Assembly (NCBI GenBank): GCA_902984215.1
Contig: CADWAF010004612.1
Location: 1-12,141 of the forward strand
Direction of reading: 5' to 3'
Origin: Willaertia magna
Lineage: Eukaryota; Heterolobosea; Eutetramitea; Acrasida; Naegleriidae
DNA length: 12,141 nt
Of the stretch, positions 2 through 12,141 are shown piece by piece. Position 1 is the stretch's first letter. Each line of letters begins with the position of its first letter. The notes beneath the pieces were generated by a model. That model did no database searches and had not been told where the DNA came from. It saw only the letters and a program-made list of their open reading frames with translations. Made by a program: the position numbers and the translations under genes.

Positions 2-223
2 GGAAAGAGAAGATATAGAAAACACAGACAATATAAACCAAGAAAGTATGTCAGAGTTTACAAGAAAGGAAGAAAACACGGTAAGAGACATGGAAAGAAA
101 AGAGTAAGAGTTTACAAACCAAGAAAGTATGTCAGAGTTTATAAAAAGGGAAGAAAACATGGTAAGAGACATGGAAAGAGAAGACATCATAAGAGAAGAA
201 ATGTCAAACAATACAAACATTAA
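2..223 (+). CDS. 3' end of a highly basic Lys/Arg/His/Tyr-rich repeat protein (partial)
   Basis: The frame starting at base 2 is open for 73 codons and stops with TAA at 221-223. The start lies outside the window. The visible protein has no acidic residue at all. It is almost entirely Lys, Arg, His, Tyr, Gly and Val, with motifs such as KPRKYVRVYKKGRKHGKRHG. Two 27-residue units repeat in tandem (period 81 nt), and the third-base changes between them are mostly silent, which supports real translation. A poly(A) signal follows 57 nt after the stop. I do not recognise the family. A secreted structural or mineral/matrix-binding protein, a nucleic-acid-binding tail or a cationic antimicrobial protein would all fit. 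No function is assigned, and the shared cationic theme with the polyprotein gene further right may be coincidence. Confidence 0.6.
   Translation, partial: GKRRYRKHRQYKPRKYVRVYKKGRKHGKRHGKKRVRVYKPRKYVRVYKKGRKHGKRHGKRRHHKRRNVKQYKH
38..199 (+). repeat. Two tandem 81-bp coding repeats
   Basis: Unit 1 is 38-118 and unit 2 is 119-199, both beginning CCAAGAAAGTATGTCAGAGT. The first 21 codons encode identical residues with a few synonymous changes (TAC/TAT, AAG/AAA, CAC/CAT). The last six codons diverge. The array probably continues to the left of the window. Confidence 0.8.
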
Positions 224-2642: not shown

Positions 2643-3923
2643 TTAACCTCTTGCAACTGCATCAAAGTTATTGTTAACATAATCTTTAACACCTGCCTTT
2701 AAGTATGGGAGTGCCTTCTTAAATAATTTACCTAACTTCTTGAAGAATTTATCAGATTCAACTTCATCTTCTAATGGTAAACCTTGGGTTCTTAAGTATG
2801 CCTTACCTAACTTTAAACCAACTTTACCGACCTTCTTTAATAATTTACCTAATTTGAAGTCTGCTTCTGCATCAAAGTTTTGGTTAACATATGATTTGAT
2901 TGCTCCCTTACCAATTTGTTTAACAACCTTGAATAATTTCTTGAAGAATTTATCTGCTTGTTCATCTTCTAATGGGATACCTTGGGTTCTTAAGTATGCT
3001 TTACCTAACTTTAAACCAACCTTACCGATCTTCTTTAAGATTTTACCGAATTTGAAATCTGCTGCTTCATCAAAGTTACCATTGATATATTCTTTAACAC
3101 CAGCCTTTAAGTATGGAAGAGCCTTCTTGAATAATTTACCTAACTTCTTGAAGAATGCTGCATCAGATTGGACTTGTCTTCTTGCAATTTTGAATGGGAA
3201 TCTTCTTGGAACAGTACCACATCTTCTTCTTGGGAGGATAGATCTAACTGGTTTATCTTCTAATGGAATACCTTGAGTTCTTAAATATGCTTTACCTAAG
3301 TTTAATCCGATTTTACCAATCTTCTTGAAGATTTTACCGAATTTAATGTCTGCTTCTTCATCTTCTAATGGTAAACCTTGGGTTCTTAAATATGCTTTAC
3401 CTAAGTTTAATCCGATCTTACCAATCTTCTTGAATAATTTACCAATCTTGAATTTATCTGATTCAGTCATAGCATCAAAGTTTTGGTTAACATATGATTT
3501 AATTGCTCCTTTACCGACTTGTTTAACAACCTTCCATAACTTCTTGAAGAATTTATCTGCTTGTTCATCTTCTAATGGAATACCTTGGGTTCTTAAGTAT
3601 GCTTTACCTAACTTTAAACCGACTTTACCGACCTTCTTTAATAATTTACCGAATTTAAAGTCTGCTTCTTCATCAAAGTTATTATTGACATATTCTTTAA
3701 CACCAGCCTTTAAGTATGGGAGAGCCTTCTTGAATAATTTACCAATCTTCTTGAAGAATTTATCAGATTCAACTTCATTATCCCAATTTTTATTGACATA
3801 ATCTTTAGCTGCACCCTTTAAGATGTCTAATAAAAAGTTATCTGCTTCAACTTCTTGTTGTTGTGCACTGACAAAAACGACTGCGAATAAAGCAATCAAT
3901 AAAACTGCTAAGACTGATTTCAT
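2643..3923 (-). CDS. Secreted precursor of many cationic amphipathic peptides (putative antimicrobial/cytolytic polyprotein, 426 aa)
   Basis: An intronless 426-residue frame from ATG at 3921-3923 (A-rich context) to TAA at 2643-2645. Residues 1-20 are a clear signal peptide ending VSA. About twelve units follow, most separated by acidic spacers ending in [AS]D (VEAD, VESD, EEAD, EQAD, TESD, EAAD). Type A (55-88, 255-288, 392-426) is like KFFKKIGKLFKKALPYLKAG. Type B (89-123, 157-192, 193-227, 289-324, 356-391) is like FKFGKLLKKVGKVGLKLGKA with tail RTQG[IL]PLED. Type C (124-156, 325-355) is like KFFKKLWKVVKQVGKGAIKS. Unit 1 (29-54) is weakly charged; segment 228-254 is Arg-rich with one Cys. 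Lys spaced every 3-4 residues among Leu/Ile/Val/Phe gives amphipathic helices, and each type A or B core carries about +6. This is the architecture of multi-peptide membrane-active precursors. Killing activity and processing are inference; no homologue is recognised. Confidence 0.8.
   Translation of the reverse strand: MKSVLAVLLIALFAVVFVSAQQQEVEADNFLLDILKGAAKDYVNKNWDNEVESDKFFKKIGKLFKKALPYLKAGVKEYVNNNFDEEADFKFGKLLKKVGKVGLKLGKAYLRTQGIPLEDEQADKFFKKLWKVVKQVGKGAIKSYVNQNFDAMTESDKFKIGKLFKKIGKIGLNLGKAYLRTQGLPLEDEEADIKFGKIFKKIGKIGLNLGKAYLRTQGIPLEDKPVRSILPRRRCGTVPRRFPFKIARRQVQSDAAFFKKLGKLFKKALPYLKAGVKEYINGNFDEAADFKFGKILKKIGKVGLKLGKAYLRTQGIPLEDEQADKFFKKLFKVVKQIGKGAIKSYVNQNFDAEADFKLGKLLKKVGKVGLKLGKAYLRTQGLPLEDEVESDKFFKKLGKLFKKALPYLKAGVKDYVNNNFDAVARG
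2751..3161 (-). repeat. A-B-C-B peptide block, copy 2 (137 codons)
   Basis: Encodes residues 255-391, again A-B-C-B, and is separated from copy 1 by an extra type-B unit and the Arg/Cys segment. The units differ mainly by conservative swaps (Ile/Val/Leu, Trp/Phe) and by spacer changes, so the helical cores look constrained. Confidence 0.75.
3348..3761 (-). repeat. A-B-C-B peptide block, copy 1 (138 codons)
   Basis: Encodes residues 55-192 of the polyprotein in unit order A-B-C-B. It is nearly the same length and order as the block at 2751-3161, with long near-identical DNA stretches, for example ATCAAAGTTTTGGTTAACAT (plus-strand reading) in both. This points to an internal duplication of a four-peptide cassette. 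Confidence 0.75.
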
Positions 3924-4250
3924 TTTGTTTTTTTTTGACGGATGATTTAGAACAGACAGTGAAATTGCAACTATTTAACAGTCATTTTTGATTATAATGA
4001 TATCTATCTATTGTTATTTTTAAGGATTATAATGGTTGGTGGTTAACACGGAATTAGAGTTTACAAGCGCACAAAATAGAATGGCCAATGGGAATCACTT
4101 GAATCAAAAATCAGGTCACTAAAACTTTTTTTACTATTTGATCAAGATTTTATTGTCAAAAACCAATTGTGTATTGTGGATAATGACACAAAGTTATACA
4201 ATGATTGTGTTGTATCTAATAAATTGATGTGGAATAAAGAAGAATGAATT
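3924..4250. other. Intergenic region between transporter 3' end and polyprotein start, 327 bp
   Basis: Both flanking genes run on the minus strand, so this holds the transporter's 3' UTR and the polyprotein promoter. TTTATT at 4149-4154 (AATAAA on the minus strand) lies 97 nt after the transporter stop and is a plausible poly(A) signal. CCAAT (plus strand) within ATGGCCAATGGG at about 4081-4092 is about 160 nt upstream of the polyprotein ATG and could be a CCAAT-type element. No clear TATA box for the polyprotein. No coding or RNA gene seen. Confidence 0.45.
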
Positions 4251-6864
4251 TTAATTAACTTTAGAGCTTTCCTCTTCAACTTCTTGTAGTTCAATTTCTT
4301 CTTTAGTTTCTCTCAAAGCAGTATCGTCAGATGACATTGGTGTAGTTTCTACAACTGACACATCTATCTTTTCACTCTCCTCAACTTTTGTTTCTCTTTT
4401 CCTTAAAATATTTGGGAAGAAAAATAATAAAACCAAAACCAGGAAATAAGCACAAACAATGGATAAACCAATTGTCAAACTTAACCAATCAAATTCTTTA
4501 GAATCTTTTCCTTTTGTTGAATAAGGTGAAGTAATCTCCTTAATTAAAGCAATGATAAATAATATTGTCAATAAAATTGGTGCAATAAACTTGATAATTA
4601 AATTAAAATCATAAGATGGACCAAATTGACAAATTGCCTTAATTTTTAAACGATGTTCATCAACGCTATGAAATGCAACTAGTTTAATACATTCCCATAA
4701 CTTTCTAATTTTTCTTTTCATTCCACTTCTTCTTCTATTATTACTTTCTTCTTCATTATTACTTATAGGTGACACAACTGTCTCACCAATATCTTCTTCA
4801 TCTTCTTCGTCCAATACTCTTTCTTGATAACTATTTTTATTAAATAAACGTTTTAATTTTGTTCTTAATGATTCACTTGAAATTAAATAGCCAATTAATA
4901 TACATTCTAAAACAGCTGAAAAAACTAAACAGAAATCACTTAACCAATGGTCAACAATATCCATTAAATAATAACCATTATCTAAACAGTAAGGGATACC
5001 AAATAAAAAACATAAAAAACAAGTAATTAAAGCAATCCAATGTAATTTTAATTTTGGGAAAGTATCGTGAATAGCAGCATTGACACCTTCCATCATTCCA
5101 AAACAGGAATCAATAGCCAATGTATATAATGCCAATAAAAAGAATGCACAAAATAAGTGTGGGAATGGCATTAAACTAATGGCCTCTATTTGTTTAAAAT
5201 AAATATTAAAAATTATTAAAAATTAAATATTGTAAAGAAATTGTAATAAATATTAAGGAAATTAAAATAAAATTTAAATTACATACCTGGAAGTACAATG
5301 AATGCTAAACCAATTCCAGAATCAGTAACTTGATCAACACTTAAACCTTTTTGATGGGCCATATAACCTAAAATTGAAAATACACAAAATCCAGCAAAAA
5401 TACTAAAGAAATAAGTTGAAATTCCAATAATCCAAGCATCTTTTACAATATCTTGATTTGGCTTATTAAATGAAGATAATGCTGTAATTGTTCCACTTGA
5501 TAAACTTAATGCAAAACTATTGTAAAATATTAATGAATAAATAATTTCATTGTAAATACTGTTAAAACTTACAATCTATAATTTATATCAATTTAAAAAT
5601 ATTAATAAATTATTATAAATATAAATTATAAATATTTTAAAAAATAAAACATACATTTGACCTGCTGCTGACAACCAAATATTAACATCAGCCAATTTTG
5701 TAAAATCAGGTTTAATATAATAATACATTCCATTAAAAGAACCTTCCAAAAAGAAAGAAGTAATAAATAAAATTAAAAATAAAATCATTGGTAAAGGTAC
5801 AGTTATATAAGTTATAATACCAGTACTTTTCGTTCCTTTCCAAATACCAAAATAAACTGTAACCCAAACTAAAAATAAAGAAATTAAAATTGGAATATTT
5901 AATTCATTAACTTCAGTATCAGAAGTTGATTTACGTAAAATAACTTCATAAAAGAATTGTTCTGATTTACCAGTCCATGGTAAAGTTGTATTAAACATGT
6001 GATAAGCATAAACAAATACGTAAGAAATTAATATTGAATAGTAACTACATATTCCAAATCCACCAAAAAGTGTCATTACTAGACCAATTCCTTTAGATCT
6101 TTTTTGTAATTGTTCAAATGCATAGATTGATGATTTTCTTAAGATTTGACCTAATGATAATTCTAAAATTAATAGTGGTATACCTAGTACAATTAATGCT
6201 ATAGTGTATGGAATTAGAAATGCTCCACCTCCTTTTAATTATTATTTTAATAAATATTTTAATTATTATATAATTCCAAATTTATTTCCAAAATTATTTA
6301 ATATTTTCACGCAAACCAGTAAAAAATGTTAAAATAATTGTGTTAAAAAAATTAAAATTAAAATTAAATCATACCGTTTTTATAAGCAAGATAAGGGAAT
6401 CTAACGAAACTGCCAAAACCTATTGCAGCTCCTAATGTTGCTAAGATAAATGATAATCTACTTCCCCATTGTTGTCTAGCATGTTGTTCTGGATTTTCAG
6501 GTTGTTCGGGAAGGTGGTCTATATCAACATCAATTGCTCCTTCAATTATTTTAGTTTCTTCTACAACAATAGGATTTGTTCTTTCTTCTTTCTCTTCTTC
6601 TTCTTCTTTATTATTGATATCTTTATTGTCACTAAAATGTTGAATGTTGTTATTTATTATGTGGTGTTTTACAATGTGTGGATGGTCAATAACATCGTCA
6701 TCATTATTTTCTTCATTATAATTTCGTATTATATCTTCACTATCAATACCATATCTTATTACACTTTCTTCTTCTCCCGAATTTGTTGTCCTTGTCAATC
6801 CATTATTATTGTTATCAAAATTATTAAGGTTTTCGTCTTCTTCTTCACGAAGGTGATGAGTCAT
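4251..6864 (-). CDS. SNF-family (SLC6-like) amino-acid/neurotransmitter symporter, 5 exons, 744 aa
   Basis: Exons on the minus strand: 6864-6375, 6231-5655, 5575-5573 (3 nt), 5516-5287 and 5185-4251. Introns (143, 79, 56, 101 nt) start GTATG or GTAAG and end AG; the joined frame closes exactly (2235 nt). Residues 1-132 are an acidic, Asn-rich cytosolic tail. Twelve membrane segments follow: TM1 contains [14 protein letters not shown] (145-158), then [20 protein letters not shown] and ELSLGQ in TM2, GQIFFALS in TM6, LPEAISLMP before TM8 and LAIDS in TM8, all SNF landmarks. TM1 has Gly where monoamine carriers have Asp, pointing to an amino-acid-type substrate. The Na2 residues are kept, but the Na1 side-chain ligands are replaced (see findings). 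The C-terminal tail is Glu-rich. Start chosen at ATG 6862-6864; an upstream ATG at 6914-6916 is out of frame. Exon 1 recurs as an orphan at 9361-9844. Confidence 0.85.
5573..5575 (-). other. Predicted 3-nt microexon (ATT) of the transporter gene
   Basis: Exon 2 ends GGT CAA AT before GTATGT. ATTATAG precedes ATT, which is followed directly by GTAAGT. The next acceptor AATAG precedes TTTTGCATTAAG. Joining AT+ATT+TTTTGC reads [12 protein letters not shown], which has the family-typical QIFF of TM6. Skipping the three bases gives GQIFALS, one residue short in a conserved helix. Confidence 0.55.
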
Positions 6865-7038
6865 TATTTTTTTTTCCAATAATTGAGATGAACAAAAAGC
6901 TGTTGCGGGCGATCATATTTTTTGATCCAAATGGAAGGTGGAAATGTTGGAAGACAAAGCAAGAAGATCTAATTCACCTCCTTTTACATTATCATTTCTT
7001 GTTTCACTCGTTTAACTGTTTGCTGTAACTAAGCACCA

Positions 7039-8640
7039 TTAGGTTATAAAGTCATCTCCAATTGAAGTTTTCTTTCTTCTTCTCTTTCTGTGATAGGTAC
7101 TGACAACGGGAGCTCTAGTTTCTGTGTCGAAATTACCGATTTGATTTGATGCGGTTGGACTTATCAACTTCTTTTGATTGTTATCTTCATCATCAACGTG
7201 GTCATTACTTTCGTTACTTTTAGATGAACTGCTATCTATTGAGTGAACGTTTTTCGTTTCGCCTTCCTCTTCTACATCTCTATTATATTCCTTTCTCTTG
7301 AGTGGATTAGAGTCGTTTTCTAAATCAACTTCCTTGATGCAATCCATAGGATCTGATATCACTAATACTGGTGGGACTTTTGTTCCTTCATCTTTCTTAT
7401 TGTCACCTTCTTTTTTGTTTTCATTAATTTCGTTCTTCTTTTGATTTTCTTCTTCTTTTCTTTCTTTCATTGCCTTGTCATAAATATTATCTGATAAAAC
7501 ATCAACATCTGAAAACTCTAAAATTCTGTCAAAATAATTCTTAATCAACTTAAGTTTCAATATTTCTCTTTCCTTAACCAATTCAATCATTTGTTTTACT
7601 TTTACAAAATCATTCTTTAACATACTTAAATAAATAAAATTATTTTCTAGTGTTACAATTTTCTCTAATGCATTCTTTTTCTGTTCTATTATTTTATTAT
7701 ACTTGTTCTCCCAATAACTTTTAACAGATAAAATATCATAAACTTTTAATTCTATATTAAAAAATCTACTTAAGTCTAATACTTGATTGACAGAAATAAA
7801 ATAATTTGTATTATTTTTAATTAATCTATTTAATAAAGATATAATTCTTTCAAAATCTAATTCACTTAATGGAATAATTCTACTTTTATTATAATTATCT
7901 AACCATTCTTCGTCCTCACTCTCTAAATCATATTCTATACCAATTTCTTCAATTAATTCGTCTTCATCTGTAAAACTATCATTTACAAATATTAAGTTAT
8001 TAAAATTCCTTTTTGATTCATATTTTATATATTTTTTGGGTCTTTTAAATTTACTTGTCTTTACATGATCTTCAATGATTTTAAAAGTAGGTATCGGAAT
8101 GTGAATATTATCAAAATCAATATCATGAAATTCATGATTTTCTTCAATTTCTCTTGCCCTTCTACTTTTTGACATTAAAGCACCATCAACTAGAGTAATT
8201 GTACCATTTCTATAGTTTTCATCTAAAAGTAAATCTAAATCCTTTTGATTTACAGATAAATTAGATAATTTAATAATATCAGAGTTATTACTTGTTGAAG
8301 TAGATGAAGATTGTAGCTTACTTTCCGATATTGCGGAATTTATTTTCTTTTTAAGGCTTTGAACATTTTTCAAATCTCCAGAATGAAGTAAAATTAATTT
8401 CTTTTGAACATCTAATTTTCTTGGACGAATAGTCATTCCCGAAGAAGATGACCGTGCAGGTGAAGTTGAAGTACTTGCCTTTCGGGATGACGTCCTCTTC
8501 TTTATATTCTTCTTTTTCTCATTATCATCTTCTACCTTTTCTTCAGTTTCCTTTTCATCTTCCTCTGAACTATCATCTTCTCTAGAGGATGAATCTTTTT
8601 TTTCTTTAAACTTGATCGTAGATTCTTTTCTTTTGGGCAT
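7039..8640 (-). CDS. Enhancer of Polycomb-like (EPL1/EPC) protein, copy 1 (533 aa)
   Basis: An intronless frame from ATG at 8638-8640 to TAA at 7039-7041. Residues about 69-325 resemble the EPL1 (EPcA) domain: MTIRPRKLDVQKKLILLHSG near the start (family: fRpRkLD..kplpi), then IPIPTFKIIEDH with FKRPKKYIKY, then IEYDLESEDEEWLDNYN and LSELDFERII (family: YDmDeeDe.wL..N...l....fE.i), then YWENKYNK (family: YW..KR). In yeast and animals EPL1/EPC is the NuA4/Piccolo acetyltransferase scaffold for nucleosomal H4/H2A. No PHD finger is seen, which argues against BRPF/Jade. The N-terminus (MPKRK, Ser/Glu/Lys-rich) and C-terminus (HRKRRRKK) look like nuclear localisation signals; the 395-510 region is charged and probably disordered. 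A second copy lies 2980 bp to the right. Confidence 0.75.
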   Translation of the reverse strand: MPKRKESTIKFKEKKDSSSREDDSSEEDEKETEEKVEDDNEKKKNIKKRTSSRKASTSTSPARSSSSGMTIRPRKLDVQKKLILLHSGDLKNVQSLKKKINSAISESKLQSSSTSTSNNSDIIKLSNLSVNQKDLDLLLDENYRNGTITLVDGALMSKSRRAREIEENHEFHDIDFDNIHIPIPTFKIIEDHVKTSKFKRPKKYIKYESKRNFNNLIFVNDSFTDEDELIEEIGIEYDLESEDEEWLDNYNKSRIIPLSELDFERIISLLNRLIKNNTNYFISVNQVLDLSRFFNIELKVYDILSVKSYWENKYNKIIEQKKNALEKIVTLENNFIYLSMLKNDFVKVKQMIELVKEREILKLKLIKNYFDRILEFSDVDVLSDNIYDKAMKERKEEENQKKNEINENKKEGDNKKDEGTKVPPVLVISDPMDCIKEVDLENDSNPLKRKEYNRDVEEEGETKNVHSIDSSSSKSNESNDHVDDEDNNQKKLISPTASNQIGNFDTETRAPVVSTYHRKRRRKKTSIGDDFIT

Positions 8641-8885
8641 TTTTATTCTTTTCTTGCTTTTTCATGTGTTGTGCGCCTATTTTAACGGAATTTTTTTTAA
8701 TCTTTAAAAATTAAATTTAATCAAAAGCCTAGTCAAAAAGAAGGCTTTGTGCATTTCTTCTCTATTGTTTCTTTTCTTCTTTTATTTCGCATTAATAAAT
8801 CAACAATAAATCCTTTATTTCTTTTCAGAATCAATAAACTGGAATAATGTGAATCCTTTTTCACATAAAAAAACTTTACAAAAAA
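8641..8885. promoter_or_regulatory. Divergent promoter between EPL1-like gene and secreted-protein gene, copy 1
   Basis: 245 bp between two divergent starts. The duplicate at 11609-11835 conserves GTGTTGTGCGCCTATTTTAA close to the EPL1 start. It also conserves an inverted repeat AAAGCC (8724-8729) / GGCTTT (8743-8748). A polypyrimidine run ending in AG just before AATCAATAAACTGG is kept too and could be a 3' splice site of a 5'-UTR intron of the plus-strand gene. No strong TATA box. Confidence 0.5.
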
Positions 8886-9221
8886 ATGAGACAGCTCTTT
8901 ATCTTCACACTTTTCTTTTTTCTTCTTTTTCTCTCACTCGTAACCAACAACACTTTGCAACAACAATCAACAGAACAAACACAACTCAACAATAAAGAAA
9001 TCAACAACAATGAAAATAATGAACTAATAATGAATAACTTTTTAAATTGGTTAACTAATAACCAAAAAGTTTATATCAATTCCAAACTCTTTTCAATCAC
9101 TTCCTTTCCACAATTATTATCTGCTGATTCTTCAAATAAAATTGTAAATAAAAATGTTAATCATTACTATTATTATGGTACACATTTAATTGCTAATAAG
9201 AAATGCTCCACCTCCTTTTAA
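8886..9221 (+). pseudogene. 3'-truncated secreted-protein gene with chimeric tail, copy 1
   Basis: The 111-residue frame starts at ATG in an A-rich context with a strong signal peptide (FIFTLFFFLLFLSLV, residues about 5-19), then a Gln/Asn-rich stretch. From residue about 49 a more ordered part reads MNNFLNWLTNNQKVYINSKL and later YYYYGTHLIA. At residue about 104 it crosses the duplication junction; the last residues (KCSTSF) and the stop come from antisense transporter exon 2 and intron 1 sequence. It is therefore the 5' part of a longer gene whose second copy starts at 11836. The FLNWL... and G-x-x-LIA pattern faintly recalls the start of Rubisco-LSMT/SETD-type SET domains, but this is weak. 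The fragment could still be transcribed from its duplicated promoter. Confidence 0.6.
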
Positions 9222-9844
9222 TTATTATTTGAATAAATATTTTAATTATTATATAATTCCAAAATTATTTCCAAAATTATTTAATATTTTCACGCAAACC
9301 AACCAGTAAAAAATGTTAAAATAATTGTGTTAAAAAAATTAAAATTAAATTAAATCATACCGTTTTTATAAGCAAGATAAGGGAATCTGACGAAACTGCC
9401 AAAACCTATTGCAGCTCCTAATGTTGCTAAAATAAATGATAATCTACTTCCCCATTGTTGTCTAGCATGTTGTTCTGGATTTTCAGGTTGTTCGGGAAGG
9501 TGGTCTATATCAACATCAATTGCTCCTTCAATTATTTTAGTTTCTTCTACAACAATAGGATTTGTTCTTTCTTCTTTCTCTTCTTCTTTGTTATTGATAC
9601 CTTTATTGTCACTAAAATGTTGAATGTTGTTATTTATTATATGGTGTTTTACAATGTGTGGATGGTCAATAACATCGTCATCATTATTTTCTTCATTATA
9701 ATTTCGTATTATATCTTCACTATCAATGCCATATCTTATTACACTTTCTTCTTCTCCCGAATTTGTTGTCCTTGTCAATACATTATTATTGTTATCAAAA
9801 TTATTAAGGTTTTCGTCTTCTTCTTCACGAAGGTGATGAGTCAT
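9199..9844 (-). pseudogene. Orphan exon 1 of the SNF transporter (truncated duplicate)
   Basis: Exon 1 (9361-9844), intron 1 (9215-9360, donor GTATGA kept) and only 16 nt of exon 2 (9199-9214) are present. The sequence then runs into the plus-strand gene on the other strand, so exons 2-5 are missing. The exon differs from 6375-6864 by a 6-nt deletion in the Glu run and few substitutions (Gly to Val, Asp to Gly), and retains [10 protein letters not shown]. An upstream ATG at 9893-9895 is in frame here and would add 17 residues ([17 protein letters not shown]); in copy 1 a one-base difference in an A run puts it out of frame. It cannot encode a working transporter. Confidence 0.85.
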
Positions 9845-10018
9845 TATTTTTTTTCCAATAATTGAGATGAACAAAAAGCTGATGCGGGCGATCATATTTT
9901 TTGATCCAAATGGAAGGTGGAAATGTTGGAAGACAAAGCTAGAAGATCTAATTCGCCTCCTTTTACATCATCATTTCTTGTTTCACTCGTTTAACTGTTT
10001 GCTGTAACTAACCACCCA

Positions 10019-11608
10019 TTAGGTTATAAAGTCATCTCCGATTGAAGTTTTCTTTCTCCTTCTCTTTCTGTGATAGGTACTGACAACGGGAGCTCTAGTT
10101 TCTGTGTCGAAATTACCTATTTGATTTGGTATAGTTGGGTTCATCAACTTCTTTTGATTGTTATCTTCATCATCAATATGATCATTACTTTCGTTACTTT
10201 TAGATGAACTGCTATCTATTGAGTGAACGTTTTTCGTTTCGCCTTCCTCATCTCTATTATATTCCTTTCTCTTGGGTGGATTAGAGTCGTTTTCTAAATC
10301 AACTTCCTTGCTGCAATCCATAGGATCTGATATCACTAATACTGGTGGGACCTTTGTTCCTTCATCTTTCTTATTGTCACCTTCTTTTTTGTTTTCATTA
10401 ATTTCGTTCTTCTTTTGATTTTCTTCTTTTCTTTCTTTCATTGCCTTGTCATAAATATTATCTGATAAAATATCAACATCTGAAAACTCTAAAATTCTGT
10501 CAAAATAATTCTTAATCAACTTAAGTTTCAATATTTCTCTTTCCTTAACTAATTCAATCATTTGTTTTACTTTTACAAAATCATTCTTTAACATACTTAA
10601 ATAAATAAAATTATTTTCTAGTGTTACAATTTTCTCTAATGCATTCTTTTTCTGTTCTATTATTTTATTACACTTTTTCTCCCAATAATTTTTAACAGAT
10701 AAAATATCATTTACTTTTAGTTCTATATTAAAAAATCTACTTAAATCTAATACTTGATTGACAGAAATAAAATAATTTGTATTATTTTTAATTAATCTAT
10801 TTAATATAGATATAATTCTTTCAAAATCTAATTCACTTAATGGAATAATTCTACTTTTATTATAATTATCTAGCCATTCTTCGTCTTCACTCTCTAAATC
10901 ATATTCTATACCAATTTCTTCAATTAATTCGTCTTCATCTGTAAAACTATCATTTACAAATATTAAGTTATTAAAATTCCTTTTTGATTCATATTTTATA
11001 TATTTTTTAGGTCTTTTAAATTTACTTGTCTTTGCATGATCTTCAATGATTTTAAAAGTAGGTATCGGAATGTGAATATTATCAAAAACAATATCATGAA
11101 ATTCATGATTTTCTTCAATTTCTCTTGCTCTTCTACTTTTTGACATTAAAGCACCATCAACTAGAGTAATTGTACCATTTCTATAGTTTTCATCTAAAAG
11201 TAAATCTAAATCCTTTTGATTTACAGATAAATTAGATAATTTAATAATATCAGAGTTATTACTTGTTGAAGTAGATGAAGATTGTAGCTTACTTTCCGAT
11301 ATTGCGGAATTTATTTTCTTTTTAAGGCCTTGAACATTTTTCAAATCTCCAGAATGAAGTAAAATTAATTTCTTTTGAACATCTAATTTTCTTGGACGAA
11401 TAGTCATTCCCGAAGAAGATGACCGTGCAGGTGAAGTTGAAGTACTTGCCTTTCGGGATGATGTCCTCTTCTTTATATTCTTCTTTTTATCATTATCATC
11501 TTCTACCTTTTCTTCAGTTTCCTCTGAACTATCATCATCATCATCTTCTCTAGAGGATGAATCTTTTTTTTCTTTAAACTTGATCGTAGATTCTTTTCTT
11601 TTGGGCAT
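10019..11608 (-). CDS. Enhancer of Polycomb-like (EPL1/EPC) protein, copy 2 (529 aa)
   Basis: Full-length intronless duplicate of the gene at 7039-8640, from ATG at 11606-11608 to TAA at 10019-10021. All EPL1 landmarks are kept: TIRPRKLD, IPIPTFKIIEDH, KRPKKYIKY, YDLESEDEEWL, LDFERII and the terminal HRKRRRKK. By eye it differs at about 17 residues plus small indels in the acidic runs (near residue 25, the ERKEE run and the RDVEEEGE/RDEEGE run). Within the domain the changes include Asp/Val in the FHDI-FDN motif, Leu/Ile in IIS-LNR, and Tyr/Asn, Ser/Asn, Asn/Lys and Tyr/Cys around the YW motif. No stop or frameshift, so both copies could be expressed. Which is ancestral, and whether both work in a NuA4-like complex, cannot be told from here. 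Confidence 0.75.
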   Translation of the reverse strand: MPKRKESTIKFKEKKDSSSREDDDDDSSEETEEKVEDDNDKKKNIKKRTSSRKASTSTSPARSSSSGMTIRPRKLDVQKKLILLHSGDLKNVQGLKKKINSAISESKLQSSSTSTSNNSDIIKLSNLSVNQKDLDLLLDENYRNGTITLVDGALMSKSRRAREIEENHEFHDIVFDNIHIPIPTFKIIEDHAKTSKFKRPKKYIKYESKRNFNNLIFVNDSFTDEDELIEEIGIEYDLESEDEEWLDNYNKSRIIPLSELDFERIISILNRLIKNNTNYFISVNQVLDLSRFFNIELKVNDILSVKNYWEKKCNKIIEQKKNALEKIVTLENNFIYLSMLKNDFVKVKQMIELVKEREILKLKLIKNYFDRILEFSDVDILSDNIYDKAMKERKEENQKKNEINENKKEGDNKKDEGTKVPPVLVISDPMDCSKEVDLENDSNPPKRKEYNRDEEGETKNVHSIDSSSSKSNESNDHIDDEDNNQKKLMNPTIPNQIGNFDTETRAPVVSTYHRKRRRKKTSIGDDFIT

Positions 11609-11835
11609 TTTTATTCTTTTCTTGCTTTTTCATGTGTTGTGCGCCTATTTTAACGGAATTTTTTTTTAATAAATAAATTAAAAGCCAAAAAGAAGGCTTT
11701 GTGCAATTCTTGTGTGTTTTTCTTCTTTTATTTCACATTATTAAATCGATTATTAAATCCTTTATTTCTTTTCTTTTTAGAATCAATAAACTGGAATAAT
11801 GCGAAGCCTTTTCCAACAAAAAACTTTACAAAAAA
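11609..11835. promoter_or_regulatory. Divergent promoter, copy 2
   Basis: 227 bp equivalent of 8641-8885. The element GTGTTGTGCGCCTATTTTAA and the inverted repeat AAAGCC (11681-11686) / GGCTTT (11695-11700) are retained, with a loop 5 bases shorter. The pyrimidine-rich tract before AATCAATAAACTGG still ends in AG despite an inserted stretch of T and C. Confidence 0.5.
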
Positions 11836-12141
11836 ATGAGACAGCTTTTTATCTTCACACTTTTCTTTTTTCTTCTTTTTCTCTCACTTGTGACCAACAA
11901 CACTTTGCAACAACAATCAACAGAACAAACACAACTCAACAATAAAGAAATCAACAATAATGAAAATAATGAACTAATAATGAATAACTTTTTAAATTGG
12001 TTAACTAATAACCAAAAAGTTTATATCAATTCCAAACTCTTTTCAATCACTTCCTCTCCACAATTATTATCTGCTGATTCTTCAAATAAAATTGTAAATA
12101 AAAATGTTAATCATTACTATTATGGTACACATTTAATTGCT
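11836..12141 (+). CDS. Secreted-protein gene, 5' part (copy 2, runs off the window)
   Basis: 102 codons are open from ATG at 11836 to the window edge. The signal peptide and Gln/Asn-rich linker match the truncated copy at 8886-9221, with one Phe-to-Ser change and one fewer Tyr in the YYY run. This copy is likely the intact gene, because the truncation in copy 1 is caused by the duplication junction and here the frame is still open at the edge, about 4 bp before the equivalent position. The region from MNNFLNWLTNN to GTHLIA is the only ordered part visible. A SETD/Rubisco-LSMT-like SET domain is a weak guess that needs the downstream sequence. Confidence 0.55.
   Translation, partial: MRQLFIFTLFFFLLFLSLVTNNTLQQQSTEQTQLNNKEINNNENNELIMNNFLNWLTNNQKVYINSKLFSITSSPQLLSADSSNKIVNKNVNHYYYGTHLIA

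Follow-up and report, generated by a model that had tools for sequence, protein, structure and literature searches.

The 12,141-nucleotide window analysed here, contig CADWAF010004612.1 of the heterolobosean amoeba Willaertia magna, contains a gene that probably encodes a secreted precursor of several antimicrobial peptides. An intact open reading frame (ORF) on the minus strand (positions 2643-3923, including the stop codon) starts with ATG and encodes 426 amino acids (aa) with no internal stops. The N-terminus of this protein, hereafter the window protein, is signal-like, MKSVLAVLLIALFAVVFVSA, as judged by eye, and is followed by 11 helical units of 26-36 aa each, with a 31-aa arginine-rich, cysteine-containing insert after one of them (Table 1). 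Three units are of type A, five of type B, two of type C and one, the divergent first unit, of type D; they follow the order D-A-B-C-B-B-(Arg-rich insert)-A-B-C-B-A, and the C-terminal end is VARG. A first-pass annotation of the window had described a signal peptide followed by units of about 26-36 residues belonging to three helix families, A, B and C, in one precursor. That layout holds, with the type D unit in addition; its estimate of about twelve peptides corresponds to 11 helical units and the Arg-rich insert.

Among the units within the gene, the ratio of nonsynonymous to synonymous differences per site (pN/pS) is 0.19 for type A, 0.25 for type B and 0.14 for type C. Differences between units are proportionally far commoner at synonymous sites, and the protein sequence is thus constrained; recent homogenisation of the units could contribute to the low ratios. 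A chance or antisense artefact was ruled out by the intact 426-codon frame together with the mostly synonymous per-site differences between units, and two long antisense ORFs on the plus strand (2740-3276 and 3325-3801) are best read as shadows of the precursor gene.

Table 1. Features of the precursor gene and its upstream region (window coordinates)
Feature	Residues	Positions	Strand	Remarks	Basis
Signal-like hydrophobic N-terminus	1-20	3864..3923	-		Sequence; AlphaFold helix 2-20
Short acidic pro-segment	21-28	3840..3863	-	QQQEVEAD, A-D at its end	Sequence
Unit 1 (type D)	29-54	3762..3839	-	Ocellatin-like DILKGAAKD; weak charge, amphipathicity non-significant	Sequence, moment test
Unit 2 (type A)	55-88	3660..3761	-		Unit typing, moment test
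Unit 3 (type B)	89-123	3555..3659	-		Unit typing, moment test
Unit 4 (type C)	124-156	3456..3554	-	Weak pleurocidin PDB match among four, E 0.68	Unit typing, moment test
Unit 5 (type B)	157-192	3348..3455	-		Unit typing, moment test
Unit 6 (type B)	193-223	3255..3347	-		Unit typing, moment test
Arg-rich insert	224-254	3162..3254	-	Sole Cys of the protein (residue 235); ends QSD; no preceding [A/S]-D	Sequence
Unit 7 (type A)	255-289	3057..3161	-		Unit typing, moment test
Unit 8 (type B)	290-324	2952..3056	-		Unit typing, moment test
Unit 9 (type C)	325-355	2859..2951	-		Unit typing, moment test
Unit 10 (type B)	356-391	2751..2858	-		Unit typing, moment test
Unit 11 (type A)	392-426	2646..2750	-	VARG end	Unit typing, moment test
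Upstream element ATTATAATC		3990..3998	-	75 nt before ATG; core ATTATAAT common to other family genes	Motif search
Upstream element, second copy		4025..4033	-	110 nt before ATG	Motif search

The best 18-residue hydrophobic moment of each unit core was compared with those of 2000 composition-preserving shuffles. The A, B and C cores (10 of the 11 units) have moments of 0.61-0.73, matched by 0-11 of the 2000 shuffles, and carry net charges of +6 to +8; unit 1 is the exception, with a moment of 0.31, reached in 443 of 2000 shuffles, and a net charge of +1. The helical-moment calculation proposed with the first-pass annotation thus finds ten units strongly amphipathic, and the claim that nearly all units are Lys-rich amphipathic helices stands for these ten and fails for unit 1. 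A fixed rule was also applied, taking the first 28 residues following each [A/S]-D dipeptide (Ala or Ser followed by Asp) and discarding segments shorter than 20 residues. By this rule 10 of 11 window units are significant at p<0.05, against 8 of 94 consecutive 28-mers from eight control proteins (two saposin-like proteins, three cathepsins, two NlpC proteins and the neighbouring RCC1-like protein); the units are paralogous, and the 10 significant ones are not independent tests. Among the eight family proteins, part of the family, scored in this way, the proportions at p<0.05 include 10/13 in P0004, 9/11 in P0007, 7/8 in P0009, 7/9 in P0005, 4/8 in the first 330 residues of P0017 and 4/6 in P0014. 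The window protein thus combines a signal (by eye), cationic amphipathic units and a regular boundary motif, the features of multi-peptide cationic helical precursors.

That boundary motif is [A/S]-D. All 11 such dipeptides in the window protein are located at unit starts (residues 27, 53, 87, 122, 155, 191, 253, 288, 323, 354 and 390), while shuffling residues 21-426 gives a mean of 2.2 and attained 11 in none of 1000 trials. An excess reached in at most 1 of 1000 shuffles was found in 15 of 19 proteins (the window protein and its relatives P0001-P0018). It extends to the diverged relatives P0017 (14 observed, 4.7 expected), P0007 (13 and 3.8) and P0004 (15 and 4.7), indicating that the motif is kept where the units have diverged. 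Nine control proteins show no such excess at 0.05; the saposin precursor L035 comes closest (52 of 1000 shuffles). A looser count places [A/S]-D from -9 to +7 of all 96 pattern-found units in 20 sequences, with partial overlap, a wide span and pattern-caught units only. Dibasic sites behave differently: KR is absent from the window protein, and one of four RR and none of 13 KK sites lie in the 6 aa preceding a unit start. Frog-type dibasic processing (KR or RR at unit boundaries) is therefore not indicated in the window protein. On the strength of its position, [A/S]-D is the putative cleavage site.

A phmmer search with the window protein against about 5.8 billion proteins gave 16 matches at E<=10, of which 12 are labelled W. 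magna, one is labelled Naegleria lovaniensis and three bear neither name; searches of this type score only the candidates that share most words with the query (about 8000; 7991 for the window protein). A profile of five relatives yielded 13 protein matches, 12 already found plus P0017, and P0014 as query matched itself, P0018 and, weakly, one W. magna protein. A match labelled Naegleria gruberi appeared neither in the window-protein search nor in that with the five-relative profile (both word-limited, with about 8000 candidates scored). As far as these word-limited searches reach, the family appears only in Willaertia, Naegleria and a few other contigs. The part of the genome searched comprises 19.24 Mb in 894 contigs, about half of the reported 36.6 Mb (PMC6892926); the window protein has 34 matches in it, spread over 18 contigs and counting its own locus, and some of these are weak or are pieces of one gene. 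Of 18 proteins tested, three W. magna family members (P0001, P0002 and P0010) have their exact sequence within ORFs of this genome, which identifies the host as W. magna. The Naegleria member is less cationic than the window protein, and Arg-, His- and Lys-rich inserts are present in C266, C865 and C221.

Several further features of the relatives were observed. Arg-Gly forms the final two residues of the window protein, P0004, P0005, P0007 and P0009, in both Willaertia and Naegleria. P0014 and P0018, only weakly linked to Willaertia, possibly form a family apart: both are secreted and have short K-rich helices together with LSDA/SDSEAE spacers. P0014 scores 36.4 bits against PF24810, a leucine--tRNA ligase domain with a Pfam cut-off of 27 bits, but no single stretch passes alone, and this match is probably spurious. 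The database models P0008, P0003 and P0006 lack whole or partial units that are found in the open frames C358, C699 and C739, respectively, reflecting either strain differences in unit copy number or introns invented by annotation. L015 (C782) and P0011 (C164) have C-termini with a Cys-rich motif, CxxxC and later a second CxxxC, which might give a helical hairpin peptide linked by disulfides. P0015 is a W. magna gene model that lies two gene numbers away from P0010, on a contig of equal length; it starts as a membrane protein, continues into degenerate helix units and the beginning of an NlpC-like stretch, and resembles a tandem copy of P0010 that has decayed.

The window protein matches 15 Pfam families at E<=1, none of them over its own cut-off, and it is thus not assigned to the cecropins or to any other Pfam antimicrobial family. 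The saposin family is not among these 15, and the protein has one Cys in 426 aa, against the conserved disulfide cysteines of saposin B. For the ocellatin family (PF08110, cut-off 22.7 bits) the window protein scores 17.9, below the cut-off, and its paralogue P0001 32.9, above it. A PDB sequence search with the whole protein gave a best E of 0.044, to designed proteins by name. Single units, one of type C and one of type D, were also searched: the type C unit has four weak matches (E 0.57-0.86), two of them to pleurocidin, and for unit 1 the bihelical peptide NSPr (8t56, E 0.0052) comes ahead of three sequences of ocellatins (E 0.83-0.98) and one of a polymerase (E 1.7). Both pleurocidin and the ocellatins belong to the antimicrobial peptides; NSPr, a lipid-nanodisc scaffold, leaves some room for lipid binding as the best match of unit 1. 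The stretch DILKGAAKD is common to unit 1, its paralogues and the frog ocellatins, but the best matched stretch is 10 residues long; for this likeness convergence is likelier than descent, and it is the more likely source of the units' resemblance to pleurocidin and ocellatins generally. A known structural or lipid-binding family for the whole protein was rejected, as the Pfam and PDB sequence matches are below cut-off or weak. Homology to a non-lytic family of that kind, which the first-pass annotation had named as evidence that would count against it, was not found over any Pfam cut-off or, for the whole protein, in any PDB match below E 0.04. AlphaFold2 with 11 sequences predicts one helix per unit and no fold (mean pLDDT 43.7, pTM 0.27), which is weak evidence given the shallow alignment.

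In sister genes the units are fused to wall-cutting enzymes. NlpC/P60 domains score 51.7 bits in P0008, 51.6 in P0013 and 49.3 in P0017 (Pfam cut-off 23 bits), and P0012 has a GH45 glycosidase domain (186.3 bits, cut-off 27); Pfam finds no NlpC/P60 in the window protein itself. P0017, encoded on a 1375-base contig, joins diverged B-like units to NlpC/P60 and matches NlpC domains and B units of the W. magna genome. P0010 ends in a truncated NlpC-like stretch, uncalled by Pfam at 0.01, and its locus C762 has an in-frame stop inside the NlpC domain match. PF00877 has four matches in the searched genome, two with units (C358, C762) and two without (C754, C633), and the sole GH45 match, on C95, adjoins an ORF that carries units and corresponds to the beginning of P0012. 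When the NlpC domain of P0008 was aligned to solved peptidoglycan endopeptidases, FDCSGL and the following His were matched in three alignments; sister genes thus encode an NlpC/P60 endopeptidase domain over the cut-off with catalytic Cys and His, the Cys/His alignment being for P0008 only. The domain in P0008, P0013 and P0017 is that of the endopeptidases RipA and CwlO but here follows cationic helices and is part of a eukaryotic secreted precursor. [A/S]-D shortly precedes the enzyme-like part in all five relatives, as read by eye, the motif having been located with patterns written to include it. The fusions to NlpC/P60 and GH45 point to killing of walled prey, and that to NlpC/P60 separately supports a bacteria-killing role; that two unrelated kinds of wall hydrolase share the unit cassettes is the strongest indication that walled prey is attacked.

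A related arrangement was observed in C754 (L026), which has NlpC/P60 together with a region that by eye is SH3-like, and which lacks helical units; the acidic pro-segment ending EEESD before its domains resembles the arrangement in the fused precursors.

These observations suggest that the window gene probably encodes a secreted, multi-peptide antimicrobial precursor that is cut after [A/S]-D. The ORF, unit and moment analyses support the core of the first-pass annotation, a secreted precursor with several families of lysine-rich amphipathic helices. The destination of the precursor is probably lysosomal: with its signal peptide it would enter the secretory pathway and most likely arrive in lysosomes and phagosomes. 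A protease would cut after the Asp of [Ala/Ser]-Asp at the end of each acidic spacer, freeing about eleven peptides of 26-36 residues, and the ten among them that are lysine-rich amphipathic helices, of three kinds, would permeabilise the membranes of ingested microbes. Sister genes built on the same cassette system would also deliver an NlpC/P60 peptidoglycan endopeptidase or a GH45 glycosidase, and wall-cutting and membrane attack may thereby come from one gene family and sometimes from one precursor.

Several results weigh against this interpretation. Unit 1 does not behave as a cationic amphipathic helix by the moment test and net charge, and its best match among solved structures is NSPr. 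By the fixed rule some relatives are weaker, with 3/10 units significant in P0011 and 0/5 in P0018, and four proteins show no [A/S]-D excess at 0.05: P0012 (274 of 1000 shuffles), P0013 (216), P0015 (52) and P0016 (69). Three cathepsins and two saposin precursors of this genome also have no excess at that level, and [A/S]-D was therefore rejected as a general pro-site or processing signal of Willaertia secreted proteins. A PF01650 search of the 19.24 Mb, about half of the reported genome, found no legumain; its sole C13 match aligns to glycosylphosphatidylinositol (GPI) transamidase (E 2e-105, vs 2e-30 for the best legumain), and legumain was rejected as the cutting enzyme. Codon bias is weaker in most sister genes than in the window gene, and the available portions of the W. 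magna literature make no mention of these proteins.

Among other explanations, it is conceivable but unlikely that the helices are never released, and that the long cationic protein, or the cationic tail of an enzyme, acts uncut as a single multivalent polymer for membrane disruption or targeting. Endolysins have been engineered with a cationic tail, and the NlpC/P60 and GH45 fusions would be a natural version of these; the total charge is strongly positive, the negative charge of the tails being far smaller than the positive charge of the cores. An uncut polymer leaves unexplained, however, why [A/S]-D stands at every unit start and before five enzyme parts despite the divergence of the units. 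It is quite improbable that the product is a lipid- or lipopolysaccharide-binding, apolipoprotein-like helical protein with a role in digestion or the handling of lipids and not in killing. Amphipathic helices are capable of carrying lipid, and the NSPr match of unit 1 and the lower charge of the Naegleria member fit such a role. However, class A apolipoprotein helices have acidic residues centred on the polar face and positive residues at the interface, and the strongly cationic A, B and C cores would seem unlike them in net charge, the property computed for this comparison; a fusion to peptidoglycan hydrolase would also be unexpected. The least probable alternative is a pro-region or assembly scaffold, for example for a cyst wall or for the packing of secretory granules, with cationic repeats that attach to anionic polymers, as the Arg-, His- and Lys-rich inserts and a separate secreted K/R/H/Y-rich family with a member at window positions 2-220 might suggest, but for which the precise amphipathic periodicity of 10 of 11 units seems more than polyanion binding needs.

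The antimicrobial precursor reading can be compared with known systems. Naegleriapore B of Naegleria fowleri and AplE and AplK of Dictyostelium are each described, in the available text of PMC11542183, as one secreted precursor giving several pore-forming or antimicrobial polypeptides. The window protein is likewise predicted to be a secreted precursor of several polypeptides, as are naegleriapore B, from the nearest genus, Naegleria, and other multi-SAPLIP (saposin-like protein) precursors. Unlike these saposin-B-domain proteins, it has one Cys and no saposin match, and saposin-like genes are separate in this genome. Precursors of bee apidaecin and of frog, ant and spider linear peptides consist of a signal, repeated short peptides and acidic spacers and yield several peptides per mRNA, with an XXXR boundary motif in spiders. 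The window protein has the same layout of signal, repeated peptides and acidic spacers, but its boundary is [A/S]-D rather than dibasic, its host is a unicellular phagocyte, it matches no such family over the Pfam cut-off, and its sister precursors carry wall hydrolases. Thus, the multi-peptide precursor architecture is already known, and the lineage, the boundary motif and the enzyme partners are new.

The supposition that the host might be a bacterivorous protist agrees with its identity, as W. magna is said in the accessible parts of two papers to be able to digest bacteria (PMC7285305; PMC6892926). Section 22 of the former names lysozymes, cathepsins, a Nox2 homologue and BPI/LBP proteins, and no linear helical peptides of this type. 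PMC9928731, in the portion available, refers in general terms to antimicrobial peptides in Naegleria phagosomes and to 178 related genes and names no such family. The accessible literature on amoebic antimicrobials, which included few subscription journals, names saposin-like proteins, lysozymes and cathepsins and no linear helical peptides in polyprotein form. The family is thus real, conserved and, by these searches of partly available literature, undescribed. If the antimicrobial reading is true, phagocytic protists possess their own peptide arsenal, which resembles animal host-defence peptides but is of separate origin, uses a new boundary motif and, in sister genes, comes with its own peptidoglycan hydrolase.

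Willaertia lysate directly inhibits sporocyst release and zoospore germination of Plasmopara viticola, and lipopeptides were suggested, the active molecule not being named in the available text of PMC7463879. The unit peptides are a further candidate, beside lipopeptides, for this inhibition, as well as candidates for prey killing by Willaertia. A wider scheme, which we regard as somewhat doubtful, is that Willaertia and Naegleria have a modular killing system in which helical peptides, Arg-rich peptides, endopeptidases and glycosidases are interchangeable cassettes, all freed in the phagosome by one dedicated [A/S]-D protease, with single transcripts giving a wall-plus-membrane attack and the peptides perhaps explaining the anti-oomycete action of the lysate.

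The codons of the window gene (AAC 11/18, TTC 24/33, AAG 39/77, GAG 0/22) were compared with those of the best actin match in the genome (6/13, 9/12, 15/20 and 2/27, respectively). The choice of AAC, TTC and AAG is like that of the actin match and unlike that of the neighbouring RCC1-like and transporter genes, and suggests that the window gene is well expressed; GAG is rare in the RCC1-like gene too (1/29). Within 200-nt upstream regions, the core ATTATAAT occurs in 9 of 15 family regions and none of 18 controls, having been chosen with the sequences in view, as the best among four variants compared (family of 15 and control of 18: 5 and 0; 7 and 1; 7 and 1; 9 and 0). This upstream element, in genes of shared ancestry, is a lead only.

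The contig begins, at window positions 2-220 on the plus strand, with the 3' end of a gene of the second secreted family, which comprises small, very basic K/R/H/Y-rich proteins; a common signal-like start, MKISYLLAVLLLSVAFAVFFVSAEG, is found in L069, L071 and L073, and the family has six genome matches, this one included. At the other end of the window, positions 6212-9194 and 9195-12141 form a tandem segmental duplication with 95.5% identity over 2996 aligned bases. The duplicated segments hold a transporter 5' end, an EPL1-like gene and a small secreted ORF (8886-9221; 11836-end).
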